Source: Dichotomocladium elegans (lineage: Eukaryota; Mucoromycota; Mucoromycetes; Mucorales; Lichtheimiaceae). Taken from it: a stretch of DNA of 64,000 nucleotides. Shown here one piece after another: positions 6,624 through 62,205 of this stretch. The stretch covers positions 434,001-498,000 of the forward strand of contig JAIXMN010000009.1 in NCBI GenBank assembly GCA_025716815.1, written 5' to 3'. Made by a program: the position numbers and the translations under genes. The notes beneath the pieces are model-generated. The model was given only the letters and a program-made list of their open reading frames with translations. It did no database searches and had not been told where the DNA came from. The stretch's first letter is position 1. Each line of letters begins with the position of its first letter.

Positions 6624-6706
6624 CGTCAGCTACAGGGTTCGAACCTGTGCGGGCAGAGCCCACCAGATTTCAAGTCTGGCTCCTTAGACCACTCGGACAA
6701 ACTGAC
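6624..6706 (-). tRNA. tRNA-Ser (anticodon UGA)
   Basis: The minus strand folds as a complete class II tRNA. A 7 bp acceptor stem (GTCAGTT with AGCTGAC, one G-T pair) is followed by a D arm with GTCCGAGTGG and an anticodon stem CCAGA/TCTGG around loop CTTGAAA, giving anticodon TGA. A long variable arm (GGGC-TCT-GCCC) and a T arm with GGTTCGAACCC follow. The discriminator base is G. There is no intron. A TTTT run just downstream (6620-6617) fits an RNA polymerase III terminator. The first 15 nt of the gene are duplicated at 13383-13397 by a retroelement insertion. Confidence 0.95.
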
Positions 6707-7462: not shown

Positions 7463-7518
7463 CTCAATACTTACATCGTTGACTTCAGAACCGTGCCGTA
7501 CCCCATCTATCATATTCA

Positions 7519-8349
7519 ATGGCGTCCGAAAATTGCAAGATGATATCCAAGTTTCTAGCTACTCCAGAAGCATTCTCCGGAACAAGTGCTGGCATGTCTA
7601 ACCCCATGGTTTGGCTCAGACAAATTAATCGTATTCGACGTGGTGCTGAACTCAAGGACAAGGATGCACTACTCATGGTCGGATCACACCTTCGTGGTAA
7701 TGCTGAATTGTGGTGGGACTCCATCGAGTCAAGCACTTCTACATGGTCGGCTTTCGAGGACGCATTCAAGAAGAGATTCATCAACGAAGAAATGCGTGAC
7801 CTTTGGTGGGCTGAAATCGATAACACCAAACAAGAATCGGGCCAAACCGTTGAGGAAATAGCCTTTCGTCTACAAGAGCTGTTTTCATTAGTAGGAGCCG
7901 TCGATGAAGCTTACCAATTACGTTGTTTCATTAAGTCCTTGAAACCCAAAATTGCATATCAGCTTGAAAGCAAAGGTGTACCAAACACATGGTCGAAAGC
8001 AGTCGAAGCAGCTATACGCATTGAAAATGTCATCAAGAAATACGATAGTCAAGAGCCAAGTCATGTTTCTACTCCAAGTCAATCGTCCGCTGCGGCAATG
8101 ACGTCGAATAATGGCGTCGCATCCTCTATTGTTCCAGTCGCTCCAAGCACTATCATGCCCAACGACTCGGTGTCTCAAGCCTTGCAAGAGGTTGTTCAAG
8201 GGTTGAATGACTTGAAGATCAATTTGGTTCGACGTCCGATGAACAGCAGCCGATCCCCGAAAACCTGTTGGGGTTGTAATCAAGAAGGACATATCCGTGC
8301 CAATTGTCCCAATGCGCAAAACCAGGGAAAAGAGAAAGGGCAGCAGTGA
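7519..8349 (+). CDS. gag: Gag polyprotein of the Ty3/gypsy element
   Basis: Open frame of 276 codons from the first ATG after the LTR. Residues about 25-170 match the retrotransposon Gag fold, including GNAELWWDSI and a WSAFEDAFKKRF block. Near the C-terminus is one zinc knuckle, CWGCNQEGHIRANC (CX2CX4HX4C), followed by a basic tail. Gag assembles the virus-like particle and packages RNA. The stop at 8347-8349 lies 46 bp inside the upstream-open pol frame, which is in -1 phase. Confidence 0.95.
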   Translation: MASENCKMISKFLATPEAFSGTSAGMSNPMVWLRQINRIRRGAELKDKDALLMVGSHLRGNAELWWDSIESSTSTWSAFEDAFKKRFINEEMRDLWWAEIDNTKQESGQTVEEIAFRLQELFSLVGAVDEAYQLRCFIKSLKPKIAYQLESKGVPNTWSKAVEAAIRIENVIKKYDSQEPSHVSTPSQSSAAAMTSNNGVASSIVPVAPSTIMPNDSVSQALQEVVQGLNDLKINLVRRPMNSSRSPKTCWGCNQEGHIRANCPNAQNQGKEKGQQ

Positions 8350-10955
8350 GCGGGGTCACAGCTGCCCAATCATCAACAAAACCCCGATATCAAGAAAGAC
8401 CAATACAACAAGCCGACGATCCACCTTCGAAGGTAAACTTGGTTGAAGCCCATCAAGATTTTGATCAAGTTGAAGTATTGGCCATACAAGGTGGTAAGAG
8501 GAATGCTTCGCAAATTTCCATCGAACAACAAGGCAGAGAAGATCCCAAAAGAAAACAACTGGAAGAAACAGGTAGACCAATGATTATCGAGGGACCATCA
8601 GGATCAAAACCAAAGAAGAAAAGGAGCCCACCAAGGCGCTTGCCTGTTTTGTTAAAACAGAAGGATGTATGGCAAAAATTGCAACAGCTTGATTCCGGAT
8701 TGACCATGGCTGATTGGCTCGCGTTGGATAAGAAAGCGTACCGAGATGTACGCGACGGTCTGAGATACCTTCATGCAAGAAAACTTCCTATCAAGAAAGA
8801 CCTTGGCAGCAACAACAAGGCCGGAAACAAGGTACATGCCATCGAGGTTAAAGAACCAGCTCATTCTTCTTTCGTGGATTCTGATCCTGATGACTCTTGG
8901 GTTGATTCTTCGGATGAATACGAGGATGAATCACTCCCTGATGAAGATTACGACTCTGACGACACTGATTATGATTATCCGTATGATTACCATGCGATGA
9001 GAAGAAGTGTGCCTTTGCGTGCTCCTGTGGTCCTTAACGGCGAAATTGTCGAGGCTGTTTTTGATTCCGGTGCCAGTGTTTCGGTCATTAGTTCAAGGTT
9101 GGCCAAGAGGTTGAATCTTATGGCTAATGGTGACAAGTTGCCGTTGTCTGCTTTGGATGATAAATCTGGCAAGCTGTATGACGTTACAGTGGATGTTCCA
9201 ATTCGAGTTGCCGGCAAGCTGAGACCCGAACATATGTGCATTTGCAAGGACTCCGATCGAGATCTGCTGTTGTTGGGCATGACGTGGTTTAGACAGTATG
9301 GCGTACAAGTGCAGCCTGACAAAGCACGAATCGTCATTCCAACCAGGCATGGTCGTGGATCAGTTGAATTACAAGGAAGATCACCCCCATTGGAGGGTGA
9401 ATCAGATGAACAAGAAAACAATGAGGTTCTGATGATATCGATTCGCGATGATTACAGGGATACAGGGAACGGTGAGCCACCTCTTGATGCTACACCAAAT
9501 GAAATTATCCCTATCTCTTATGTCGAAGATGTCGTCAGCTCCATTTCAAGATTGGAAGATACCTCTCAAGATAACGACCTTATACCTGTTGGATTGCAAG
9601 AATTAGTCGATGCAAATGGAGATGTCTTCTTCGAAAACACCGGCATTGGAAGAGTCTCGATCATGAAGCACCATATTCCGCTACAATGTTCTCATCCTGT
9701 ACGGTCCAATCCCTATCGGCTGACATGGGAGGAAGAAGAGCACCTCAAGAACGAATTGGACAAGTTGCTGGAGCTTGGCTTAATCCGACCATCCATGGGC
9801 AGGTGGACCTCTCCAGTTTTCTTTGTCCGAAAGAAAGATGCTGGCTTACGCATGGTCATTGACTATCGTAAGTTAAACAAGCAAACAGTTAAAGAAGGGT
9901 TTCCCATGCCCCATATCGACCAAATACTAGACAACATGGGTGGATCGAGCTGGTTTAGTACCTTGGATGCTGCTTCAGGGTACTGGCAAGTCCCTATGGC
10001 CGAAGATTCGATCGAGAAGACTGGATTCATTACTCGTTGGGGTGCATACGAGTGGTTGGTGATGGCGTTCGGAATGACCTCAGCTGGATACACCTTTCAG
10101 AAGCTCATGATGCAGTTACTCGCTCCTTATTTGGGGCGCTTCGCTTGGGTGTTTATTGACGATATTATTATCTTTTCACGATCGTATGAAGAGCATTTGG
10201 AGCATCTACATACTGTTTTCAATGTTTGCCGATCTGCCAATCTACGTTTGCGCCTTGAGAAGTGTCAATTCGGTCGTCGAAGTGTTGAATACTTGGGCCA
10301 TTTGGTTTCTGGCGAAGGGTTGCAACCATCCCCACGCAACATCAGAAAAGCTCTCGAAATGCCGTCTCCGACCAACGTGAGTCAAGTGCGCTCTTATTTG
10401 GGGACCGTGAGTTATTTCAGAAGATTTGTCAAAGACTATGCAGCGATTGCCGAACCGTTGACAAGATTACTGAAAAAAGGAGTCGATTTTGCATGGGAAA
10501 AGGAGCAGCAAGATGCTTTCGAGTTACTAAAAAAGGGGTTGACGTCACCACCCATACTTTCATATCCCGATCGCAATATGACGCAAATCTTAACCACGGA
10601 TGCATCAACTAAGGGACTCGGCGCTGTGTTATCGCAAACACCTCAAGATGATTCGAACGATGAGAAGGTGGTTGCCTATGCCTCAAGAGCATTAAGAGGA
10701 CCGGAGTTGAACTATGCGACCACTCATCAAGAAGCTTTAGCCGTCGTTTGGGCAGCCCATAAGTTCAGGCATTATCTAGCTGGGAGACATTGGATTTTAC
10801 GGACCGATCATGCAGCTCTCCAATTTATTTTTAACAACCCCACGCCATCTCCCAAGGTCCAACGATGGGCAGCAGCGATGATGGAATTTGATTTCCACGT
10901 CGAATACCGCCGAGGAATCAATAACCCAGCCGATTCCTTTTCACGTTTGATTTGA
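8304..10955 (+). CDS. pol: Pol part 1: protease, reverse transcriptase, RNase H
   Basis: A frame of 883 codons in -1 phase to gag, so expression probably needs frameshifting; the nominal start inside the overlap is unlikely to be used. Order: a linker with charged Asp/Glu-rich stretches, then an aspartic protease around residue 250 (VFDSGASVSVIS, catalytic DSGA). Reverse transcriptase runs from about residue 470 to 660 with the catalytic motif FIDD (about residue 617). RNase H (TTDAS near residue 770 through a DHAAL block) ends at the typical ADSFSRL. The frame stops right after RNase H, and integrase lies in a separate ORF 223 bp downstream in another frame. Confidence 0.95.
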   Translation: MSQCAKPGKRERAAVSGVTAAQSSTKPRYQERPIQQADDPPSKVNLVEAHQDFDQVEVLAIQGGKRNASQISIEQQGREDPKRKQLEETGRPMIIEGPSGSKPKKKRSPPRRLPVLLKQKDVWQKLQQLDSGLTMADWLALDKKAYRDVRDGLRYLHARKLPIKKDLGSNNKAGNKVHAIEVKEPAHSSFVDSDPDDSWVDSSDEYEDESLPDEDYDSDDTDYDYPYDYHAMRRSVPLRAPVVLNGEIVEAVFDSGASVSVISSRLAKRLNLMANGDKLPLSALDDKSGKLYDVTVDVPIRVAGKLRPEHMCICKDSDRDLLLLGMTWFRQYGVQVQPDKARIVIPTRHGRGSVELQGRSPPLEGESDEQENNEVLMISIRDDYRDTGNGEPPLDATPNEIIPISYVEDVVSSISRLEDTSQDNDLIPVGLQELVDANGDVFFENTGIGRVSIMKHHIPLQCSHPVRSNPYRLTWEEEEHLKNELDKLLELGLIRPSMGRWTSPVFFVRKKDAGLRMVIDYRKLNKQTVKEGFPMPHIDQILDNMGGSSWFSTLDAASGYWQVPMAEDSIEKTGFITRWGAYEWLVMAFGMTSAGYTFQKLMMQLLAPYLGRFAWVFIDDIIIFSRSYEEHLEHLHTVFNVCRSANLRLRLEKCQFGRRSVEYLGHLVSGEGLQPSPRNIRKALEMPSPTNVSQVRSYLGTVSYFRRFVKDYAAIAEPLTRLLKKGVDFAWEKEQQDAFELLKKGLTSPPILSYPDRNMTQILTTDASTKGLGAVLSQTPQDDSNDEKVVAYASRALRGPELNYATTHQEALAVVWAAHKFRHYLAGRHWILRTDHAALQFIFNNPTPSPKVQRWAAAMMEFDFHVEYRRGINNPADSFSRLI
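8325..8331 (+). promoter_or_regulatory. candidate -1 ribosomal frameshift site
   Basis: GGGAAAA sits in the gag frame as G-GGA-AAA, which fits the X-XXY-YYZ rule for -1 slippage, six codons before the gag stop. Slippage moves the ribosome straight into the open pol frame. A downstream pseudoknot was not evaluated. Confidence 0.6.
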
Positions 10956-11178
10956 CATTCATATGATAACTTCGATTGCACTCCTATTCTCTCCATTCCT
11001 TCGTATCTTATCTTCTATGACGACAGCAACCTTTCCCCGACTTGATAACAACGTATGACAAACTCATTGAATATTTAAGAAAACTCGAGCTCAAATAAAA
11101 TAGAGACACCTCTCTTGATCCTAACTCTTTGACCTGTTTCCAGAAGTCTATTGCTATACCCTACATCAACGATCTTTC
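10956..11178 (+). other. gap between RNase H and integrase ORFs
   Basis: About 220 bp with stops in all frames, holding an AATAAA-like ATAAAATAG stretch. It separates two pol domains that are normally fused. A spliced or separately initiated integrase is possible; I saw no strong GT donor in the pol frame. Confidence 0.5.
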
Positions 11179-12546
11179 GTGGGTGGTCGTTTAGGTCACT
11201 CATCAATACTTATCATGGATTATGCCTTCTATCTCAGTCTCTATTACTACTTGGAAAGTGGCACTTATCCCATCGGGTCTTCTGATGCCGTCAAATTGAA
11301 AGTGAGAAGACACGCTGCCAAATACCGCCATCATCAAGGCCGACTCTTCCTCAAGAAAACATCTGGCAGGGGTCTTTGGGGACGCGAGCTGTTACACGAG
11401 GGTAATATTGCCGATGTGATAACCCAAGTTCACGAGGAGGGCCACACGGGTATACGCAACACTTGGATCAAGGTTAAGCAGGCTTATGTGGCTCCAGGAT
11501 TACGAAACAAGGTTCAAGAGATAGTGAAAGCTTGCGAAACTTGCCAATTCCGTAAAAGACGACCTCATAAAAGATACGAACCAGCCAAGCCCATCCCTAC
11601 TCCTCTCAAGCCGTTCTATATGGTTGGCGTGGACGCCGTCGGCCCAATCAAACTTCCAAATCAAGATGACAAATACATCCTTGTTGCTGTAGATTATTTG
11701 ACACGTTGGCCTATCGCTCAAGCCGTCTCGAATATCACACAAGAAACAACTGCCGACTTTTTGATGAACCAGCTGGTAGTTGTATTTGGCGTCCCATCGT
11801 ACATCCTATCCGATAGAGGTTCAAACTTTACGTCAGGTTACATCCGTGAATTCCTTAAGGAGTTAGGCTGTCGCCACATTACCACCACTGCTTACAGACC
11901 TCAGACGAATGGCCTATGCGAAAGGATGAATCAGACGATAGTTCAAACACTATCGAAGTTGGTGCGAGATGCTGATGACCTTTTCAATTGGGACCGATAT
12001 TTGGGACCTACGCTATTATCAATTAGAACCACTCCCAATGATGCTACCAAATATTCCCCTGCCATGTTGCTATTTGGATACGAATTGAGAACACCATCAA
12101 CCTGGCCAGCTCCTAGACGCGATTTTGTGGAAGGGGAACTAGAAGAGGAAATCGCAAATCGCGTACGAGTCATCCAATATTTATGCGATAACGTTCGAAT
12201 GGTTGCCAAGGAAAAGGCTGCTGCAAGGAAAGAACAAGACAAGAAGAGATATGATCTTTCAGTCGCATTCCGCAAGCGTTTCAGAGTCGGTGAACAAGTA
12301 TTAATGCGTGACCAAAACCCTGCGAACAAGTTTGCTGATCGCTGGCTGGGACCTATGTTGATCGTCAAGGTGAATAACAACGGCACATACCGCTTGGAGG
12401 GGCCAAACACGCAACGACTTACAGGTGCTGTGCATGGAGATAATTTGACACCTTTTATAAGAAGACATAATATGGTGCCAGATGTTCAAACGAGTAATTC
12501 GATAAGGCAATTTCAAGCGTGGGTCGAACGTTGGCGCCAAGACTAA
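11179..12546 (+). CDS. Pol part 2: integrase
   Basis: Open frame of 455 codons. An HHCC zinc-binding N-domain is visible (HEEGHTGIRNT, then CETCQFRKRRP), followed by the DDE catalytic core: VGVDAVGPI (first Asp), ILSDRGSNF (second Asp), and AYRPQTNGLCERMNQTI, where the Glu of CERMNQ is the third acid. The C-terminal part has the DNA-binding-type block VGEQVLMRDQNP and RWLGPMLIVKV. No chromodomain follows. The upstream in-frame start is uncertain because the zinc domain begins well inside the ORF. Confidence 0.93.
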   Translation: MGGRLGHSSILIMDYAFYLSLYYYLESGTYPIGSSDAVKLKVRRHAAKYRHHQGRLFLKKTSGRGLWGRELLHEGNIADVITQVHEEGHTGIRNTWIKVKQAYVAPGLRNKVQEIVKACETCQFRKRRPHKRYEPAKPIPTPLKPFYMVGVDAVGPIKLPNQDDKYILVAVDYLTRWPIAQAVSNITQETTADFLMNQLVVVFGVPSYILSDRGSNFTSGYIREFLKELGCRHITTTAYRPQTNGLCERMNQTIVQTLSKLVRDADDLFNWDRYLGPTLLSIRTTPNDATKYSPAMLLFGYELRTPSTWPAPRRDFVEGELEEEIANRVRVIQYLCDNVRMVAKEKAAARKEQDKKRYDLSVAFRKRFRVGEQVLMRDQNPANKFADRWLGPMLIVKVNNNGTYRLEGPNTQRLTGAVHGDNLTPFIRRHNMVPDVQTSNSIRQFQAWVERWRQD

Positions 12547-19096: not shown

Positions 19097-21163
19097 TCAG
19101 CCTTGCACCCGTTTGGTATGTGACTTCCATAGCGCTTCGCGCAGAAGGAACTTTTGATACTTGCCTGTATTAAAAGTACAAGCTATTAGATAAACACACT
19201 ATGGCTATCCTCAATAATCAGGCTTACCAGTGCTCGTCTTCGGAATGCTGTCAGTAAAAATGACCTTTGAAGGGCATTTGTACCCTGCTAAATTCTTTCG
19301 ACAGTGTGCAATGACTTCTTCGCTCGTGCAGGTACGACCGGCTTTAAGGATCACATAGGCGTATGGACGCTCGCCCCACTTTTCATCTGGCCCTCCAACG
19401 ATAGCACTATAAAAGCATGTGAAGTCAGAAGGACGCATTATCACGGCCATGATTGTTTTTCCGTGTACCACTCAGAAACGGCGTCCAATTGAACAACGAC
19501 ACTCTCGACCTCGATGGAACTAATATTTTCGCCGCCGGACACAATGACATCCTTGGAACGATCCACAATTTCGACGGACCCATCCATATGGCGAACAGCC
19601 AAATCACCTGTCCAGAATACACCGCCATGGAAAGCCTTCGCGGTCTCTTCAGGATCATTATAGTATCCGAGCATGGTCATGTTGCCCGTCATGCAAATTT
19701 CACCAACAACCTTGCCGTTGGGAGGAACATCCTCAAGCGTTTCTCGGTTTATCACGCGCATTTCATCGGCCATCGACGTGGCATAACCTTGACGAGCAGC
19801 CAGCGTGAGATGAGTCTCTTCAGGGTACTGCTCCAATGCCGCTCGATCGTACGTCAGAGCTGCAGGTCCATATGTTTCTGTTAAACCGTACACCTGTGTT
19901 GGCTCAATATTGAGGTTACGCAATCTTTGGATGTGCGTTGGGGAGAGCGCTGCGCCTAGCAGAGAGCACGAAGATGTGTTAAAGCTTACGCAATTATAAA
20001 ATACAAAAATATCAACACAAATGCATCCTAGCTTTTTGTTTACCTCCGCTGAAAGAAAATACAGTGTGATTAAGACGAGTAGCGTCCTTGTGGTTGCAGA
20101 TCTCATTTTGTACAGTCGGCGCTCCACAGTAATGCGTAATACCTTCTTCTTTCAGATACTTCCAGATTACCGTGTAGTCGATCGTGTTGAGCATCACTTG
20201 TGTTGCTACACATGGCAAAATAATATGCCGTTTATGATCCAAGCCATGCACTCTCGTTCTTTCGCCTTCTCCTTTTTTACTTACCACCAACAGCTACAAG
20301 AGCCCAGGGGAAATTCCACCCATTACAGTGGAACATGGGAAGTGTCCAGAGATATACAGTTTCTGATGTCAGGCGAGTATTGATACACATTGCCATGGCC
20401 ATCATATAGCATCCACGGTAGGAAACCATGACGCCCTTGGGTCGTCCAGTGGAACCGGATGTGTAGTTGATCGAGATAACAGCGTTCTCGTCTGTTGTGA
20501 GTGGCAGCTCGTTCCAGGATCTTTTCGGGGGGTGCTCTGCAAGGATCGTCTCGTATTGGCAGAAGGGACCAGCCTCCTTGTGATAATCTGCAACTTCGAT
20601 CCGCTTCACACGCTCATTAACCGCGGGGGACACGCGGCTTCTCAATTCGTGCTGAACAATGAGCACGCTAGCGCCAGAGTGCGTGACAACGTATTCAAGT
20701 TCTGGAGGCATTAGGCGAGTGTTGAGTGGGACAATGATGGCGCCAGCGGCAGGGATGGCAAAATTAGCCTCGAGAAAAGCAGGAACATTCTGGCAAAGAA
20801 CAGCGACGCGATCGCCAGGTTTCACACCATACTGATCGATAAGAGCGTTCGCAAGGCGGAGGACACGTTCGGCAAAAGTCTGAAAGGTGATACGCCGGTT
20901 GGCATGGATAACGGCAGTTTTGTGAGGATACACCATAGCACTCCGTAAAAGAAATCGAAGAGGGTCCAGGGGGGAAAGGTATGGTACTTGACCAGGGCGG
21001 CGCTGGATTCGCACTGTAAGGATTATTAGGCAATATCGTAAGCGGCTAGAAAAAATCATTGGCGGCTGGGTTGCTCACACTTTTCAAAATAGGGACTTCC
21101 ATTCTCTGAGAGATGGTTGGCAATGCTCTGAAGTCGTCTTGCAGGGGTGGAAGTGTCAGTCAT
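19097..21163 (-). CDS. Acyl-CoA synthetase (AMP-forming), peroxisomal, copy 1
   Basis: Six exons: 21163..21079, 21013..20285, 20205..20044, 19955..19469, 19406..19228, 19164..19097; GT-AG introns of 62-88 bp; 569 residues, usual for the family. It activates a carboxylic acid with ATP to an acyl-adenylate and transfers it to CoA. The phosphate-binding motif YTSGSTGRPKGVM is at about residue 212. Also seen are YGLTETYGP, the hinge TGDLAVRHMDGSVEIVDRSKD, and the catalytic Lys in PKTSTGKYQKF near the C-terminus. Similarity is to plant AAE/short- or medium-chain synthetases; the substrate is unknown. Residues 10-18, RLQSIANHL, fit the PTS2 peroxisomal consensus (R-L-X5-H-L). There is no PTS1 (ends RVQG). 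A tandem paralog lies 580 bp upstream with exons 2-5 of identical length. Confidence 0.93.
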
Positions 21164-21743
21164 AGGGGTATGGTAATTAAAGGAGAAAAAGAGGTGAGGT
21201 TATAAAAAAAATTCCCAAGTCCTTTAAGTAGATTCCGGCTTTATTTATTTTTTCTCAGGAACTGTGCAACCTTGCATATCGCATTAATCGTCTGGGGATA
21301 ACAAAGTGCTTAATTGTTTGTCCATTTTTTTCATCTTTTTCGTCTAGGATGCTTCTCTCTGATTTTTGAAGCATCCCGACGTGTGGGGTACTCCTTTCGC
21401 CGAACCTCGGGTTTTTATTTTCAGTTTGACTTCCGATCTTTCTCCACAATTTCGTCAGTCGGTGCTCCTCTTCCCCACCTTTTGTAAGTCTCATTCCCAC
21501 ATTTCACCCGACGATCACCAATGCTCTTGATATTTCAACCCCCATTTCGTGATATTCTGACTTTAATGTTTTGCCGTGTGGGGCCGTGGGAAGTATGATA
21601 ACCATACTTACTGAAGATGAACTCCAGCCTGCGTAGACCCCCCCCAAATCATCCCTTGCTTTTTGGACGCGGACGTCATCTGAAAGCTATTCATCAAATC
21701 TATAAGAACCATCCTAATCCTAATGAATTCATGGTTCCATCAA
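21164..21743. other. intergenic region between the tandem synthetases
   Basis: Contains the promoter of copy 1 and the 3' flank of copy 2. No other gene is seen. Confidence 0.5.
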
Positions 21744-23823
21744 TTAATTGATGCGTTTTTCGTAGGATGTCCAAAGTTTTTCACGTAGAAGGAACTTCTG
21801 ATATTTGCCTGTTATCCACCACATGGAGCAATATACCAATTAGTATCGCCACTATATTATGATGGGATCCAGCTGACCTGTGCTTGTCTTCGGTATAGAA
21901 TCTGTGAATATAACCCTGGATGGGCATTTGTAACCAGCAAGGTTCTTCCTGCAATGTGTAATAACCTGGTCTACCGTCGCATGATTATTTGGTCTGAGGA
22001 CCACAAAAGCCCAAGGTCTTTCACCCCATTTATCATCAGGGCCGCCGATAATGGCACTAAGTATTACGCGAGATGACAAAGAACCGGTGATTATTATCCC
22101 GACAAAAACTGCTTCTTAAATTCCCAGTCCAGAAAACTTACCATTCCGACACGACATCCATTTTAAGGATCGCAGCCTCGACTTCGATTGAGCTGATATT
22201 CTCCCCGCCAGATACGATTACATCCTTTGATCGGTCAACAATCTCGACTGCACCATCTGGATGACGCACCGCCAGATCTCCTGTCCAGAACACGCCGCCT
22301 CGAAAAGCCTTCTTCGTTTCTTCTGGGTCATTATAATACCCATGCATCGTTGTGTTACCGCTGACACAGATTTCTCCAACATGTTTCCCGTCGGGCTTAA
22401 CATCGGTGCCTGTCTCACGATCAAGCACACGAAGCTCATCAACAATGGCGTGGTTGTATCCTTGGCGAGCGACTAGTTCAGAATGATCTTCAGGTGAATA
22501 GCTCTCTAGGGAAACTGCATCGTAAGTCGCACTCGTAGGGCCATATGTTTCCGTCAATCCGTAGAGATGTGTAGGCTCAATATTCAAAGAACGCAAGCGT
22601 CGAATATGGGTACTTGATAAAGCTGCACCTATTTATATACAGACGGTTAGTTATTTATCCCCCACCCATTCCGTTGCATATATCTTTTAAATATCTTCCG
22701 TACCTCCACCAAAAGTGAGCACCTTTTGCTCAAGACGCACTGCATCCTTGTGATTACAAATTTCATTTTGAACTGTTGGTGCTCCACAATAATGCGTAAT
22801 GCCTTGTTCCTTGAAGAGGCGCCATATTAACGAATAATCGATTGAATTTAGCATTACTTGCTTGGCTGAGAGATAAGTTAGGCCACATAATCAGCTGGTG
22901 TATTTTCCAATACCATGAGGAGCTTTTAAAAAGCTTACCACCGGCGGCCACCAGCGCCCACGGAAAGCTCCATCCATTACAATGAAACATAGGCAGTGTC
23001 CACAGATAAACGGTTTCGGGTGTTAATCTAGTAGTAATGCACATCGAGATTCCGTTCATATAGCAGCCGCGGTACGAGACCATCACACCTTTTGGACGCC
23101 CGGTAGATCCAGAGGTATAGTTGAGCGAAATGATACTATTTTCATCTTCTACCAAGGGAAGGTCGTTCCAGGCAATCTGTGGCTTTGTGCGAGCGAGAAG
23201 CTCCTCATACGGGCAAGGCGGGTCGCTTTTATTTTGGGACCCTGCCACTTCTATCCGTTTAAGCCTACCCAGCGCTTCTGGTGACACTCTTGCGAGCAGC
23301 TCTTGCTGAGCAATCAACACTGTTGCTCCCGAGTGTTCAAGAATATAATCGATCTCGGGAGCTGTCAACCGTGTATTGAGCGGGACTAGCACACCACCTG
23401 CAGAAGGTACGCCAAATTTACAGTCCAGAAAGGCCGGCACATTCTGAAGTAGAATCGCAACACGGTCACCAGGCTTGACACCAAAATTAACGATCAAAAC
23501 ATTGGCAAGACGATGGACACGGTCGGCAAAGATGCTGTAGGTATAGCTGCGGTCACCATGGACGACGGCCGTTTTGTTCGCGTACACTACGGCACTGCGG
23601 AGCAGGAATCGAATTGGATTCAGAGGAGTCAAATATGGTACCTGGCCAGGGCGTCGATGTAATCGGACTGTTTGTGTAATACCCCAAACAATCAGTTATG
23701 TTATCACAGCAACGCTATGTCAAAATACTTGCGCTTCTCAAAGGCAGGTGTATATTCATCAGATTGTGAAAGGTGTTTGGCAACAGCCCTAAGGCGGTTG
23801 GTTGCTGAAAATTGGTGAGACAT
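21744..23823 (-). CDS. Acyl-CoA synthetase (AMP-forming), peroxisomal, copy 2
   Basis: Six exons: 23823..23733, 23667..22939, 22865..22704, 22628..22142, 22056..21878, 21808..21744; 570 residues. Exons 2, 3, 4 and 5 are 729, 162, 487 and 179 nt, exactly as in copy 1, so the pair arose by tandem duplication. Motifs: YTSGSTGRPKGVM, YGLTETYGP, TGDLAVRHPDGAVEIVDRSKD and, across the last intron, TSTGKYQKF. Residues 10-18, RLRAVAKHL, again match PTS2; the C-terminus KRIN is not PTS1. Intron 1 appears to use a GC donor (GCAAGT) where copy 1 has GTGAGC; both splice in phase 1 to give FEKLR. Substrate specificity may differ between copies but cannot be read here. Confidence 0.92.
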
Positions 23824-35627: not shown

Positions 35628-35983
35628 TCAGATGCCTTTGGGTATGACAACAGTAATTTTATCGCCCACTGCACCCCACGTTATTCGTTTGTTGACGAAG
35701 AGCGCGTACCACGTGGTCAGGATAACAAACCACACGATACACCCACCAAGCGACATGTACACGTCTAATGCATACAAAACCAGATTGTTATTAGTCGTGA
35801 ATTCAAAAATCCTCATTCATTACATCGCCTCAGTTCACGCGGTGCTGTTCTTTGTTGGCTCGCACGGAAAAGATAGAGAAAATTCACCAGCCATAGCAGC
35901 GGTAAAAACGCAAAGCCGCCATAAAACATCTTTTTACTAATAGAGACTTGCTCCTCAGGGGTCATCTTGTCGACCTTTGGCAT
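35628..35983 (-). CDS. PEN2: PEN-2, gamma-secretase subunit
   Basis: Two exons (35983..35839, 35764..35628; 74 bp GT-AG intron, phase 1) encode 93 residues (human PEN-2 has 101). Diagnostic blocks are present in order: KKMFYGGFAFLPLLWLVNFL (first hydrophobic hairpin), then SLGGCIVWFVILTTWYALF (second membrane span), then WGAVGDKITVVIPKG, matching the conserved WGALGDYLSFTIP end. In animals and plants PEN-2 binds presenilin, triggers its endoproteolysis and completes the intramembrane protease complex in ER, Golgi and later membranes. Only the loop between the hairpin and the last span is poorly conserved. The window holds no presenilin, nicastrin or APH-1. The protein is too short and hydrophobic to be found easily by automatic gene callers. 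Confidence 0.9.
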
Positions 35984-50475: not shown

Positions 50476-52724
50476 TGCTACTGTTCGGATTTGTGAGTTA
50501 ATGAGTGATAACACGAAGACGAAAAAAAGCTCGTTTAAAATTGCGGTCTGACTTCCAAAAATGGACACACAGGAAGTCGACATTGCACTGGGAGTTGTGG
50601 ACTGTTCGTCGCCAATTCAGAAGATATGTATGCCCATACATCGGTCTCGCGAATAGTTGAAACACCCGATGGTTTAGGCCTCCATAATTTCAGGGATATC
50701 CTCGATGTAATAACCGAGTGCAGAGATTTTTGGGACAATGCGATTGCTCAGTAGGCAGCGCGCCACTTTGATCATGAAGAGAGCACATAGACGTGGAATT
50801 ATTGGGAAAAGAGCGAGTAAGGTAAAGCTTTTAGCCACAAAAGTGACAAGGACTATGTAGTGATTGCTCAGTTGAGGAGGAGGGGGGCATTCCTGAGTTA
50901 CTTTTGAATTAGGAGGATGGGTCAGGTGATGGGGTGACTCGTTTATTATTGTCCGAGTGTAACGTTGATGGTAATATCAGTCTTTGTGTGCAACATTTAG
51001 AAAACGATCATCTATCAAGTATATGTGTGGGGTTTTCTATCTTCCTGCACCTTCATTATCCTTTTGACGTCTGTGTACTGAAATATCCATAGGCCATAAT
51101 AAAGTTGGTGAAGAGCAAGGGAGATTATGCCACCTCTCTCGCGCAACTTCTTTGTACTGAATGCACGACTCCGAACTCACATTTGTCGCCTGATTTTGCA
51201 AAGAGCAAGACAGGAATGCCTTTGGGAGGAGTTTCTTCTCGCAAAAATCATATGACCATCTGCTCGTCATTCCACGGATGACTAGAACTAAAGTGGGTGA
51301 TTTCCCCCTATTCTCAGTGACCAATATAAGCAAATAGAACTACGTTCCTGTTTTCTACCTCTTTTTCCACTTTGAATGCAATGTACTAAGAAATATATTA
51401 CAGTTCGCATTGAAGAAACGAACGTTTGATACTTAATTTAGACCATGTATTTCAAGGTGGATGATATTATTCTTGTGTCGGATCAGATTTAGCGGAAAAA
51501 GGGGTATGTAGGGATATAGAGATATCAAGGATCAACAAAAACTTTAATACAAGAAGATGCGATGGTTACACACCCATTTCATTACTGAGAAGATCGGTGG
51601 AAAGAAGCGAGAGATGCGCTAATGGGAGAACGACCCAAAACAGACATATATGCTGGTGGCTGCCTCAAAAATTAGCCGTTCTTTGGACAAATTACCACGT
51701 ATAGATGTGAGTAGTTAAGCCTCTGTTTGACAGAGCATCTATGGTAGCACACTAAAATACAATTATTTCGTTGCTCTGTTTCGATCAGTGAAGCCTCCTT
51801 ACCTATCCAATATTTGTGGATAATTTTCCTTTTCTATGCGGATGAGCGAAGAAACAGTGCTCTAAGCAAGTGTGAGAGAGGGAAGGGATCATGCATGTTT
51901 GAAGAATTGCTTATTATGGACAATCGACTTTTTTAAGCACTACGGGTTACACGTGGTGAACTTTTCTTTTTCAACAGAGCAACTTCATACCGCGGCAACC
52001 TTTCCTTTCTCAATTTGCTGCGGTAACAGGAACAACAGCAATAATAACGACGATAATGTGGCCATTTAGTGCAAAACAGAAAAAGTAGGGACCATGGGGA
52101 CGAGCATGTTCTTTGGCAGAATTCTTGAGCTTCTGGTCAGCTGACGATGAAAGAATGGTTGACCATATCACTTTATAAACAAAAGACATAACACAAGCCA
52201 TCGCGTATGATTACTTACCATTTATTGGAAGTAGATGGCCCCCATTTCCCTTTTTGATTTGTTATTGTTCTATCGAAGGAACTAGACATTTGGCTGAGAT
52301 CTTGCTAACATGTCATACGACAAATTGACTCTTGTCTTTCTACCTCATTTATACTTGTAAAGCCCTCCTCTTTATTATTATCGTCTCCTCGAGAATATAC
52401 TATGTCTTCAAACAAGTTATCTATTATTAAATACTTACAAATACAAAGAAACATGCAGAGAGAAACGAGACCGCTGGAGAGTAAATACTATAAGGTTCAT
52501 CATGCAATAAAGCGTGCAACTATAATTCATATTTTATATTCGGATATCGGAGCAGGGAAGCCGCCAAACCCATTTAATCCGCCACGATTTCCCCCTTTCC
52601 GGGCTTTCCATCTTTCTTGTTCTCTCCTCTCTCTCTCTTTCTGTTGCTTCACTCGCCGCCACCAAAGCATTAGTTCACTTTTTATAATAGCTACTACCAC
52701 CATTGTACTTGACAAGTGTGCTTC
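50476..52724. other. gene-free stretch
   Basis: About 2.2 kb between two divergent genes (PCID2-like on minus, BTB/CAP-Gly on plus), so it contains both promoters. The 100-150 bp before 52725 are pyrimidine-rich. No other gene is seen. Confidence 0.5.
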
Positions 52725-55397
52725 ATGCTTCCCGCCTCCTCACTTGCCCTCCAATCTGTTCTTGCAAAGCTATACGAGTCTCCAGAGAAATATGTAGCCG
52801 ACGTCTGCTTTGAGTACCCCAGTCAAAAAATCTGGGCTCATCGGGGTAACGCTGATCGCAATGGCAAAAGTCTCTTTGACATGCTCATTCTTTCTGCACC
52901 AATAGCCATTATTCTTGCCCGTGCGCCTTCGACGTTTAGCCAAAAGTATCTCGAGAAGCTCATGCGCGATGCCAGTGCTCATCGACCCAAGATCACTGTG
53001 TTTCGAAAGCCCATACTACCGCCGCAGATTATGCAGCAATTACTCCGCTTCTGGTACACAGGAGAATTCGCCATCAATACTCTAGCGACAGACAGCGCGT
53101 CAATGCGCCTCTCAGCATTATCCATGACTAGTACTCAGAGTACTCTATCGTCTTCTATAGCCACCGCTAATGAAATTGAGAAGACCGAAATTTTTAAGGA
53201 GATCCAGGAACACGAAAAGTTGCTGGCCACGCCGCTCATGACGTACTCGTCATCTCCGTCGTCAACTCAGCAGCAGCATGAATATCAACAAGACCTGGTC
53301 GAGCAGCTCGTTACCGATATTAAACGCATGTATGATCAGGGTCTTGGTGCAGATGTGGTCTTTCATTTTGGCGGCTCAGAGTCTAAACCCCTCGCCGCCC
53401 ATCGCTGCATCCTCGCTGCACAATCGTCCCACTTCTACCAGCTTTTTTGCAGCGCCACCACAAACTTTAGCCCAACTGTAGACATGTTGGCCCACGATCC
53501 TGCTGGATTCTCAATCCTTTTAGACTATTATTATACACAGCAACTAATGGCCCCACCCTCCCTCGGCACCGGTACCAACCAGCAACAACAACAGCATCAT
53601 CACAACCAACTCACGCTTAACGCCAAAAAGCAGCGGTTACGCCTACTTCAAGCGTGTTTCCGCATCTGTGACATATTTAATGAAGATGAGAAAATATGCA
53701 CCGTCATTCTGGAGGATATGGCTGCGGTTTTGAACCACTACCGATGTCTGTGCAACGACTGTGTGAGCCTTTTGCCTTTCATGCTCTGGTTTGCCGACCA
53801 ATTCAGGCTCCGATCTTTGCGCAAGCAGCTCATGACGCTTTACACTGATCCGTTTGCACCTAGTTTGTGGTCGGCTCCTGCTTTTAGCGCCCTGGCGGAA
53901 CAGGTGCCATCTTTGCTAAACGAGCTCGAGTCACGCGTGGCAATCAAGAAGCAAACGGTTACGCAGTTACTTGAAGCCCTCCATCTTACACTCACTCGTC
54001 TCAGACCTCAAACTATTTCCATACGCCTCGTCCTGACACGCCTCATCAACCAAGCCACCTCCGTCGTTGCAGATAATTTTGACTATTACTGTTCTGAATA
54101 CCCCATCTTGCTCTCGTATCTTGACGGCATTGGCACGGCTGGGGGTGATGGAAAGGCTGACTTTTTAGAGTTTCTGCTCATGCGTGTGGTCACGCAAGGC
54201 ATCCATGATCGTAACGCGACTATCATTTATCACGGCATCGTTGGCGATCTCGTCAGTCGTATTGGCGACCCGAACCACACTGTTGTCCTTAACGCCAGAC
54301 AGAAGTGCGTCGTCTACCTTGCTAAGCGATGGCAACAAGTCAAGGCTCAGGGTAGCTTCAAAACAATGGACAAGGACATGCTCAGAAAACTGTCGGAAGG
54401 TTGGTTATTATCATCATCCGAGTCACATGTCATTGTTACCTAACTTTAATTTGTGTGTGAGTATACAGATATCGATGTGCCCTATCGCACCTTGACAAAA
54501 TCCTTCGACACCAGCTTCCGATATCTTTTGTTTGGCTTTTGCGCGAACAATAGCAACACTAATAATGGCACAAAAGACGATAACAGCAGCAACGCTGCGG
54601 TGAGCGGGGTAGCGACTGCGCTAAGCGTGAATGAAAAGACTCCTACCATCACACGTCAGGGTTCACTCTCATCCACCACAGGCATCAGTGGGGTGGGGAC
54701 GATCGGGAGTGCGCGAACTAATAAAGAACTCAAACTCCTGCTCGATTCACTCCTTCCTCTGGAAACGGGCAATTCTGCCACATCCACGTCTCCGTTAACA
54801 GGCGACAACACGACGAGCAGCAATGCGACAACGGCTACAGCAACAGGAAAACCCCAGACGACATCACGACCCTCTCGACTACGATGGGAACTCCCGAGTG
54901 TTCCTCAGAGAGAATCCCGCATCCAGGCCGCTCAACAGGAAACCCCCCATCTTCGTAACCATTACGTCCATCAACAAAAGAATCAGTATCAACATCAGAA
55001 GAAGCAGGATAAACAGTATCCAACCTCAAGATCTCCGTTCAGATGGCTACAAGGAGCCCATAAGAACGAGCAACACGTCCTTGTTCCTACCATCGGTGCA
55101 AAGGTTGAGCTATTACGCCGCCCGTTGCCTATGTACGGTGTGATAAAGTATATTGGCGAAGTGCATTTTGCAAAAGGGACGTACGTTGGTGTCGAACTTG
55201 AGAGCCGCTGTAAGTGTGCCATTGCTCGTTGTGTATGTGTGTGTGTGGAACATTTCCATTGATCGTCTCGAATGTATATAGTGGGAAGTAACGACGGGTC
55301 CATCGACGGAAACAGATACTTTCAGACTGACCACCAGCGCGGTGCGTTCTGCAAATTAGACGATTTCAAGATTATCTCTTTACCCACATCAGCATGA
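52725..55397 (+). CDS. BTB and CAP-Gly domain protein
   Basis: Three exons (52725..54399, 54469..55209, 55282..55397) encode 843 residues. Two BTB/POZ-like segments are visible: a diverged one near residues 15-130 (YVADVCFEYPSQKIWAHR and PPQIMQQLLRFWYTGEF) and a clearer one near 200-290 (GADVVFHFGGSESKPLAAHRCILAAQSSHFYQLF). A helical BACK-like region follows (CRICDIFN through the Arg/Leu-rich core to about residue 555). After a long Ser/Thr/Gln-rich linker comes a C-terminal CAP-Gly domain split by intron 2: VGAKVELLRR-type start, YGVIKYIGEVHFAKGTYVGVEL, then GSNDGSIDGNRYF. CAP-Gly binds tubulin tails or EEY/F motifs; BTB dimerises or recruits Cul3. A microtubule-linked adaptor is inferred. 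CAP-Gly canonical GKNDG reads GSNDG. The ATG at 52725 is used; the upstream in-frame codon is GTG. Confidence 0.85.
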
Positions 55398-55944: not shown

Positions 55945-58900
55945 CTATGCGAACTGGTCGCTATGGCGACTGCACACCGTCTGCACCAGTTTGACGTAGT
56001 GCATATTCTCGAGTTTTTCAAGCGGAACAGCATCGCCATCCTCACCACCATTGAAGAGAATTTTGAGCAGCTACAAAAGAAATCAATCACATGATCGCTC
56101 TTTTCATGTAACGTGTGATAAACAGTACCTCAAGCCATTTCACCAGCACACGCTCTTCATACTCATCCAAAGGAGGAGTATCGTTATCCTGTGGCCGCAT
56201 CACATGCTCGAAATTGATCAACACCTGGTTCCAGATCTTGAGCACCACAACCTGCATATTGGTCTCGGAGAGGTTGTCATTAAGCGTCTGGAGATTCTTT
56301 TCAAGATAATCCAAAAGTGGGAAGATTGCTTCCTCACACTCCTGCAGAGACGGTTCCACGTGCTTGTTGCTCCGGCCAAAGGATCCAAAGAAGCTTTTTT
56401 CACGCTTGAGAAGCTTGTCGATAGCCTTGCGAGAGAGAGAGTACCGCATGAACTGACCCATCTAGTTGCATTCCTTCCGGTTTTAATTTTCGTGTACAGC
56501 CAGTGCCTCTGGTCATCTCTACCTGTTCTACAATCAAAGCCGCCGCATCACCTTCTGCTTGCTTGAGGGTTCTAAACGATTTGACAAACCAGAATTGGAT
56601 GTCATCCTTTTCCCCAACAAGGCTGGCACGGATATGCAACTTGCCCTGCGGATCTAGCGGCAATTGAAGATCATGGATCTGGTAGTCCTCATAGACCTCA
56701 GGTGATAATCTGAACACGGCCTGACCACATTCTTCGTTCGTACCAATGACATCCTCGTCGTACACGACCGCCAGAACATTGGCCATCCGCTCGCTCACCG
56801 TCACATCAAATGACTGGTCCCAGCGCGGATTCAGTGACTTGTACACTGTCCGTGTACGGGCAATCTCTCTCCTGTTGATAAAGAGCGAGACGTACGGGTC
56901 GCTCAATCCATTGTTGTCGAGTGCCTTCAAATCTTCGGCTTTGACAACCCGGATAGAGTATAAAAAGTTGGCCTGCCCCAATTTCTCCACTGTCGGCATT
57001 GCCGACGCAAGCTCGTGCATTCGCTCTGCAACCTCGTCAACATCCATCAGTTGGTATAGCCGGTCTAGCCTGCTACGTGCCGCCTCAATATTGTTGACCA
57101 TTATACACAGCTGAAAGATTTTAGGAATATCAATATCCAGATGTACTGCTTCTCACTCCTCCTTATACCTCAGGCGTAATATCGCGAGGCACCGATCCTT
57201 CTTTGATCGGTTGGCTGGTGCCGGTCAGAGTCCGTGCCTTGTGAAGGAAGGAGCTAGACTCGCGTTTGTCCTTGCCTGCGCTTTCAAGCGTCTTGAACTC
57301 CTCAGCGATGAAGGACTCTATCCTGCTGGTATATCGCTCCAGTGCAACCGCGAAGATCTAACGAATACGGCTCGGTGAATGACTTGATTCCTACTCGCCT
57401 TTTAACTTCATAGAAGCAACAAACAAACCTTTGCTAAGGATGTCAAGAACCGGAACAATTGGCTCTCGTTCGGCCACTGCAAGTTTTGTATGAAATCTAC
57501 GGATTGATTGAACATGCTAAACAGGTCAACAATAGACGACGAGTACACGGATTCGCTACTAAAGGCTTTGCGGTTGTCCGGCTCGTCTTCGCCTTCCCAG
57601 TTGAAGATAGCGTCTTGCTTTATCGCATTATCTACCCATTCGGGTGTGGCATTATGTGTGGTGATCAACCACTTTCGTACATGCTGCAAAAACCAGGATT
57701 CAACGCGGAACTGAGCCGTCTTCTGCCGCGGCCCACGCTGATCATATAGACGCTTGAGGCTCAAAACCTTCTGGTATAGCTCAAAGACGACTTCGATGGG
57801 GGCTTGGCGTGCTTCGGGTGTAAATGCCCAGTTCTCAATGATCAGCGTGAAAAAGGGCATATATATCGCCATCACCTGCCCTGGTACATCCAAGACTCTG
57901 AAAGATTTTCGGACATCAGTCTTTCCCTTGTTCACTTTCCGAGACGTTAGCACATACTAACCCCTTGATCGCAGTTGTGAATCGCTGTTTACTGAGCCCC
58001 ACAATTTCCTTGATCAGCTTGTCAGACAGGGTCAAAAGGTTAGTCAGACTATCCTCGCTAGCATTGTTTGCTTGGCTTTCGAGGTGACGCCATCGCCCAA
58101 CAGCAGCACCCTGCAGAGATGATCAGTGAATGTATAGCTCTCTCCCTCTCTTTTGCTAGCCCGCTCTTTACGATGCCCGCTTCGCACGCCTGGTGGGGCA
58201 AAATACTCTACCTGCAACGCTTCCTTAAGTCTCGAGAATGATCGTAGTGGGTCCGGATGGTCTTCACGGTAGGCTGGATTCTCGTAAATCTTGTCCAACA
58301 TGGAGACCAATTCATCCACCCATCCAGGCCTGACAGAGGTTTACAAGGTAAGGATATGGGTCCCACACCGCAAACTTCTATGCGCTTTTTCTTTTCACAA
58401 AACATACCGAACTCGCCAATAGTTGGATAACTGTACTTCGAGTTCTTGTAATATGGTCTGGTTCAGAGCTTCGTAGGTCCGGATCCATCCTTCTCTCTAG
58501 AAATAGAAGCCATTTGAAAACTAATTCCTCCGCGTCTGCGCGTCAAATGTACAAACATCGTTAATTGTCCAGGTGGCTGGATCCGACTCCTTGATGACCT
58601 TGTCGAGACCACGTATTGCGTCCTTGATATCATCAATATCCACTTTTTGGGCCTGGTAGAGCTCCGTCATGAACTCAAGATAAATAATTGCGCGGTAGGC
58701 TGCAGACACTCGCCATGTCTTCCAGCATTCACGCAAGAGCTCATCAGACTGTTGAGACAGCACACTTGTTTTTGCACGCTCATTGTCAGGAACCACATTC
58801 GTATCGTAGTCAATGCAGAGTTCCATCAATTTCCGATAATAGCTCTGTGGAAAGTTTGGGATGTAGGTAAAGGGGCACTGGAAGGAAGAGAAAGAGAACA

Positions 58901-60896: not shown

Positions 60897-62205
60897 TTAT
60901 CGGCCAATCTGGCTTGGAAGGGTTGAGATTTTAGTGGCCTGTCTGCTCATGAGTTGGTCAGCCCTGTATTTTTCATAGAAACGCTCATATGTGTCGATAC
61001 GAAGCATATCCATGTGTGCCGGACCAAAGAGCGACTTGAACTTTTGGAAATCACAGTGATTCGGGTTGCAGCACTCGACCGTGGCCCATGGATATCGGCG
61101 GCCGAGAACGGTTTCCGGTCGCTGGCTGGTGGGATTGAGCGGTGAGAAGGATGTTGGACGGCCAGTCGGTTCAATGAACACTGGACGCCCGGTCTCTGGG
61201 TCTTCTTCATAGCCGATGAGGCAGAGGGGCATATGTCGTAAATAATCGATCATGGCCGCCACGTCTTGATCATCAGGGTCCTCATCCAAGCATTCGTGGA
61301 GCATCTCAAGAATATTCCCCCACGATGTACTGCTAACTTGGGGCGCCCGCGGAGAAGGATACATGCGCTTCGGAGTATCTGCAGTCGGTGAAGCTTCTTC
61401 ATCCTCCTCTTCTTCGTTTTCTTCATCGCTGTCATCCAATCCGATGTTGCCATATACCGGGATTTGGTAGATATCAAAAAGGTCGGTTCTGCATGTCTTT
61501 TTAATATACTCCCGTTGGACGACCGTCAGAGTATCGGCCTTTCCAAGGACAGGAATAATATTCACCCTGAATGAGAGCATGCGAAGCATATATCTATCGA
61601 TGTCCGTCAGGCCGTCCACCCATTCCATCGTGTCGATAAAATAAATGCAGGCATGGATATGGGTGTCGATCGCTTTGGGGTCTCGCCTAATTTTAGTCTC
61701 CTAGTAGGGAGATTGGGGGACAAAGTTACAACCGCAGGCAATCTTTTTTATGCACACGTGTGTGTGTGTGTGTGTCAATGTTTCTTTTTTTTTTTTCGCT
61801 TGCCTCGATAAAGGTCCTTTCAAGCTGATGGTCAATGTACTTGCATATATGCTGAAGGAGATCCTCGATGGGCACCATGTGTGAGATACCCGGCGTGTCA
61901 ATCAATGTCAATGCCATCCGGTCGTCGCCGCCGCAGCCGGGTCCTTCAAGATGCATCGACACACTGTAGAACTCCTCCGTAGGCTGGAGCGCGTCGGTGA
62001 GCGCCATGGGCTTGGACTCTTTGAAGGTTCCCTGGACTACGCTCGACTTCAGATCCTCGCAGAGCGTCCGTAGGAACGTTGTCTTGCCTGCACCGGTCTG
62101 TCCAACAAGCATCACGTTAAGATTAGGGATTGGGTCTTTTCGTCTACGTTGGTAGTTGTTTCTGCTGCTGCCCATGAGATGATCTGTAAGGGTATTGTAC
62201 ACCAT
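60897..62205 (-). CDS. Divergent septin GTPase
   Basis: Two exons (62205..61804 and 61700..60897) encode 401 residues. The G1 P-loop GQTGAGKTTF is near residue 37. The switch-region DTPG motif (LTLIDTPGISHMV) follows, then IHACIYFID and the G4-like GKAD (VNIIPVLGKADTLT) in place of the usual AKAD. A long acidic insert (DDSDEENEEEEDEEAS) interrupts the G domain before the septin unique region (RRYPWATVECCNPNHCDF), and the C-terminus has no clear coiled coil. Septins form hetero-oligomeric filaments at septa, tips and infection or branching sites. The insert and missing coiled coil suggest a divergent class. The intron appears to use a GC donor (GAG/GCAAGC) and contains a TG/CA microsatellite and an A run. 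Confidence 0.88.
61753..61775. repeat. TG/CA microsatellite in the septin intron
   Basis: Run of TG repeats next to a T-rich tract (61787-61798) inside the septin intron. Confidence 0.85.

Follow-up and report, generated by a model that had tools for sequence, protein, structure and literature searches.

A PEN-2 gene in the mucoralean fungus Dichotomocladium elegans, its likely gamma-secretase partners, and a MYND zinc finger on the fungal presenilin

The window analyzed here, a stretch of 64,000 nucleotides from the mucoralean fungus Dichotomocladium elegans (family Lichtheimiaceae), belongs to contig C112 of a 39.4-Mb assembly, the whole of which was used for our genome searches. It carries on its minus strand a two-exon gene for PEN-2, a subunit of gamma-secretase, the intramembrane protease familiar from work on Alzheimer's disease, with the following layout:

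35628..35983, minus strand: PEN-2 gene from start to stop codon, with two exons and a product of 98 residues, identified by the PEN-2 profile and by identity to the deposited protein P0001
35824..35983, minus strand: exon 1, 160 nt, with the start ATG at 35983, coding for the N-terminus and the two short helices
35765..35823, minus strand: intron, 59 nt, GTAATG...CATTAG, with the stretch CTAATAAC, which by eye resembles a branch point
35628..35764, minus strand: exon 2, 137 nt with the TGA stop counted in, coding for the greater part of the long helix and for the C-terminus with TVVIPKG

A six-frame search of the genome with the PEN-2 profile returned two matches that correspond exactly to both exons (E 2.3e-9 and 8.4e-9), and since it yielded only these two exons, both above the curated cut-off, the match is far beyond chance. 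The 98-residue protein scored 100.3 bits against PF10251 (curated cut-off 25 bits), and its predicted helices at residues 9-23, 28-42 and 49-90 form the succession of two half-membrane helices and one full helix that is typical of the family. In addition, the four best rows of a fold search with the predicted structure were all PEN-2 chains. The conserved C-terminal block of PEN-2 is required for function, and in our sequence comparison its TVVIPKG stretch was invariant across 24 fungal PEN-2 proteins and aligned with the human C-terminus. Gene, strand, start, stop and two-exon layout had all been placed correctly in the original prediction, which was made from the DNA letters alone, and the conserved PEN-2 blocks quoted there, FAFLPLLWLVNFL and WGAVGDKITVVIPKG, are present.

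Two alternatives at the level of this gene were rejected. The protein might belong to another two-span membrane family that merely resembles PEN-2, a reading for which we found no supporting point and to which we give practically no weight: the profile check placed the protein in PEN-2 and in no other family, PEN-2 being the sole Pfam match at E values up to 1 for a 93-residue form of the protein and up to 0.1 for the 98-residue form, and both PDB sequences found at an E value of 1 or less were PEN-2. The 93-residue form is the product originally predicted, from the donor GTGAAC and a 74-nt intron (35765-35838), and GTGAAC...CATTAG is indeed a possible intron that keeps the frame. However, this splice loses five residues (RELRR) and changes the next residue from Y to H, whereas the donor GTAATG, located 15 bases beyond GTGAAC and used with the same acceptor, gives a product identical to deposited P0001 and restores an L-R/K-R/K-Y block found in most of the aligned family. 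The 98-residue form also has the higher Pfam score (100.3 versus 85.9 bits) and outscored the shorter one against all 24 homologues, which are those of 42 protein matches that carry an organism name, our own record and 17 nameless ones being left out. Because the 98-residue form equals the deposited protein, prevails in every one of these comparisons and scores higher against Pfam, the GTGAAC donor is very probably wrong, though the gene and its ends are right, and a 93-residue product, be it the main one or a splice variant, is highly improbable. The PEN-2 gene is thus real and rightly named, and needs a minor change to its splice.

The D. elegans protein shares with human PEN-2 (PSENEN; PDB 5a63 chain D) the Pfam family, 36-38% identity in fold alignments and the arrangement of two short helices and a long one, but its loop ahead of the last helix is a few residues shorter and its C-terminus reads DKITVVIPKGI, in letters unlike those of the human chain. 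PEN-2 proteins of other Mucorales (Backusella, Lichtheimia, Mucor, Rhizopus, Phycomyces and others) mostly have 98 residues, are 64-78% identical and contain the same conserved blocks, and among them that of D. elegans is an ordinary member with nothing notable to set it apart. The best protein match, P0001, is deposited in NCBI as 'gamma-secretase aspartyl protease complex, presenilin enhancer-2 subunit', so that the PEN-2 gene taken alone is already known. Gazave et al., 2009 (PMC2770060) sampled four fungi, including a microsporidian, found neither presenilin nor nicastrin nor APH-1 in them, and inferred loss. Gamma-secretase of early-diverging fungi has since been published (Merenyi et al., 2023, PMC10406608), and the earlier statement that Dikarya lack gamma-secretase agrees with that paper. 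PEN-2 in a mucoralean is thus to be expected, and several such proteins are deposited under the PEN-2 name; the novelty originally attached to a fungal PEN-2 was overstated, fungal gamma-secretase being published and the protein already named in NCBI.

Profile searches of the genome located the three remaining subunits as well: presenilin on contig C31 with four exon matches (L013:1249-3501), APH-1 on C112 at about 0.4 Mb from PEN-2, and nicastrin on contig C1. For each of the three, one six-frame match contained internal stops, which fall in introns of our hand-spliced models; these stop-free models encode 594 (presenilin), 243 (APH-1) and 661 residues (nicastrin) and scored 407, 166.6 and 139.6 plus 123.2 bits against their own profiles, the last two values referring to the two nicastrin lobes; the small-lobe and the large-lobe profile were both matched. 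By eye, the nicastrin sequence has a signal-peptide-like start and a hydrophobic C-terminal stretch, and its closest PDB relative is 4r12, ahead of human nicastrin. One intron of the hand-spliced nicastrin gene is of the GC-AG type, with the donor GCAAGT (L015:2075-2133). The deposited presenilin of D. elegans, P0043, retains the WD, GLGD and PAL motifs including both catalytic aspartates and matched human presenilin-1 at E 3.4e-76. A search for presenilin homologues at E 0.001 gave 185 proteins, of which the 120 listed were examined; a WNF stretch, in helix 4 and presumably the contact site for PEN-2, occurs in the D. elegans protein and in 96 of these 120. PEN-2 as a lone relic without its complex is unlikely, with presenilin, APH-1 and nicastrin in the same genome. 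Signal peptide peptidase (PF04258), likewise a GxGD intramembrane protease, gave three matches at one place in the D. elegans genome, but it is a separate gene on another contig, and the D. elegans presenilin scores its 407 bits as a presenilin. Human presenilin-1 (PSEN1) shares catalytic motifs and fold with the fungal protein, apart from YD in place of WD in the first catalytic motif, and its sequence match begins only at fungal residue 118, past the MYND zinc finger described below.

In animals, nicastrin and APH-1 form a scaffold that presenilin joins, PEN-2 being added last and triggering the self-cleavage of presenilin, and the mature protease acts on type I stubs with short ectodomains that a sheddase has produced. 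The gene set of D. elegans fits this assembly scheme, and a complete gamma-secretase is likely in this fungus to judge from its genes; the presenilin complex originally inferred for the lineage is supported at the gene level, with all partner genes and the catalytic motifs present. We consider it highly probable that the gene in the window encodes the PEN-2 subunit of such a complete enzyme. For D. elegans we infer assembly, self-cleavage, proteolysis and substrates alike: PEN-2 would bind presenilin, aid its maturation by self-cleavage and stabilize the active complex that also contains APH-1 and nicastrin, and the assembled complex would cut stubs of single-span membrane proteins within the bilayer. 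Structure prediction supports the PEN-2 and presenilin folds. Some points weigh on the other side, namely that APH-1 and nicastrin are represented here by hand-spliced models, that the hand-spliced presenilin (594 residues) and the deposited one (583 residues) disagree over 11 residues of the variable loop that separates the catalytic aspartates, that the predicted presenilin structure is of moderate overall confidence (mean pLDDT 65.7), and that the case as a whole is built from genes, spliced frames, motifs and predicted folds.

The fungal presenilin also carries an N-terminal MYND zinc finger at residues 36-75 of P0043, 66 residues ahead of the presenilin domain. This region scored 28 bits against PF01753 (zf-MYND; cut-off 22.7) and contains eight zinc ligands spaced C-x2-C-x7-C-x2-C-x7-C-x3-C-x8-H-x3-C. 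The predicted model is confident here, with block pLDDT values of 85-96 over residues 31-90, and the fold search with presenilin matched MYND structures weakly (best 2dan, E 0.65, prob 0.99). MYND fingers bind zinc and proline-rich peptides, and in animal presenilin the N-terminal side of the first membrane helix is cytosolic; a finger lying N-terminal of that helix may dock proline-rich partners. Database entries show the two domains together, and our literature search, which covered titles and abstract openings, found no account of a MYND-presenilin fusion in fungi. The available parts of Merenyi et al., 2023 (PMC10406608) do not treat the domain architecture of fungal presenilin.

By motif, the finger was found in 81 of the 120 listed homologues (69 with a stricter motif), distributed as follows over groups assigned from organism names:

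Mucoromycotina with Calcarisporiella and Bifiguratus: 25/34
Glomeromycotina: 8/10
Mortierellomycota: 28/41
Basidiobolus: 2/2
Zoopagales: 1/2
chytrids with Hyaloraphidium: 12/18
blastoclad Sorochytrium: 1/1
aphelid Amoeboaphelidium: 1/1
Neocallimastigomycota: 0/1
animal Trichuris: 0/1
metagenome proteins: 3/9

In 24 of the 39 fingerless presenilins, fewer than 80 residues precede the part aligned to presenilin, and these models may be truncated; P0156, which is among them, starts inside a MYND-like stretch. The remaining 15, including Piromyces and five metagenome proteins, have longer N-termini without the motif and look like real absences. In the Piromyces presenilin (P0157) a long N-terminus of another kind occupies the place where the finger would be, and by eye the metagenome proteins P0154 and P0159-P0162 have a stretch in common with it. 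Pfam detected MYND in 28 of 30 aligned presenilins, a set picked to favor finger-bearing proteins and hence not an unbiased rate; in this alignment C39, C47, C50, C58, C62 and H71 were at least 90% conserved, the first and last cysteines less so. Moreover, 15 of the 120 listed homologues, from Umbelopsis, Calcarisporiella, Glomeromycotina, Syncephalis and chytrids, have a GRGNxAQxIN-type motif ahead of the first presenilin helix, and 13 of them bear a MYND finger; D. elegans is without the motif. Its carriers are:

P0064, P0069, P0070, P0074, P0076, P0110, P0112, P0114, P0120, P0125, P0130, P0132, P0133, P0137, P0141

Since this linker motif is common to distant fungal groups and mostly accompanies the finger, the comparison favors a single origin of MYND-presenilin over repeated fusion. 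A region search with the N-terminus of the aphelid presenilin for non-fungal MYND-presenilins returned the query alone (one of 290 candidates) and is uninformative on absence elsewhere.

Two further explanations bear on the presenilin and its complex. The finger could stem from gene prediction that fused two neighboring genes, as the location of the MYND and presenilin parts in separate exons in D. elegans and the lack of the motif in 39 of the 120 listed homologues might suggest. We regard such an artifact as quite unlikely: the same domain order recurs in the other 81, from many genomes and annotators and as far as an aphelid, many of the fingerless proteins may be truncated, given the 24 with short N-termini, and P0043 passes the zf-MYND profile cut-off. 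In addition, the open frame of the first presenilin exon offers a single ATG, M145, which lies within the first predicted helix. Alternatively, PEN-2 and its partners might be retained for a job independent of the protease, for example in protein trafficking or degradation, and gamma-secretase-independent functions of presenilin in moss and mammals are cited by Gazave et al., 2009 (PMC2770060). Against this, which we likewise hold to be improbable, D. elegans keeps the catalytic motifs, as do most of the 120 listed homologues (first aspartate in 116, GxGD in 116, PAL in 109). PEN-2, which is needed mainly for maturation of the protease, is itself retained, in line with a proteolytic gamma-secretase.

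CSL proteins are the nuclear effector family of Notch signaling, and profile searches of the genome found the CSL (LAG1) DNA-binding domain at ten places with 17 matches (e.g. C46:1991497-1992046 and C30:268476-269063). The Reprolysin_5 metalloprotease domain, whose fold is that of ADAM sheddases, was found at five places with eight matches (e.g. C1:1043000-1043852 and C1:1909786-1910544); as it was also matched in two of 14 prokaryotic controls and is not special to ADAMs, these genes are candidate ADAM-like sheddases only. The Notch repeat, searched with one repeat family, had no match in the D. elegans genome, but none of 14 control genomes matched either, so that absence is not demonstrated; APP was not searched for. 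Fungal genes for CSL and ADAM proteins have been described before, as titles cited in PMC2770060 indicate. Candidate sheddases, gamma-secretase and CSL genes thus coexist in one genome without detected Notch, and their joint action in fungi is a matter of speculation. It is conceivable, if rather doubtful, that fungi and aphelids inherited a gamma-secretase form of their own, in which the cytosolic MYND finger would dock proline-rich substrates or co-regulators and so couple cleavage to a Notch-less signaling that reuses a pre-Notch toolkit of ADAM-like sheddases, gamma-secretase and an enlarged CSL set, and that Dikarya lost this form together with the complex.

While the PEN-2 gene alone changes little, the analysis shows the full set of subunit genes in D. 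elegans, and its new element is the MYND finger on the catalytic subunit, found in no paper searched. The widespread MYND-presenilin offers a concrete handle on the role that gamma-secretase played in opisthokonts before there was Notch or APP, and since mucoralean fungi are cultivable, native substrates can be sought. Findings on animal presenilin should be applied to fungi only with the N-terminus in mind.

The window outside the PEN-2 gene contains a putative Ty3-type LTR retrotransposon (7483-12546), recognized by frames for gag, protease, reverse transcriptase, RNase H and integrase; a tRNA match on the minus strand (6624-6706); and two or more similar, adjoining AMP-binding (acyl-CoA-synthetase-like) genes on the minus strand (19441-23695), which look like a tandem duplication. 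Three further open frames were assigned by domain:

52713-54443, plus strand: BTB-domain open frame
56400-57152, minus strand: C2-domain open frame
60897-61700, minus strand: septin-domain open frame
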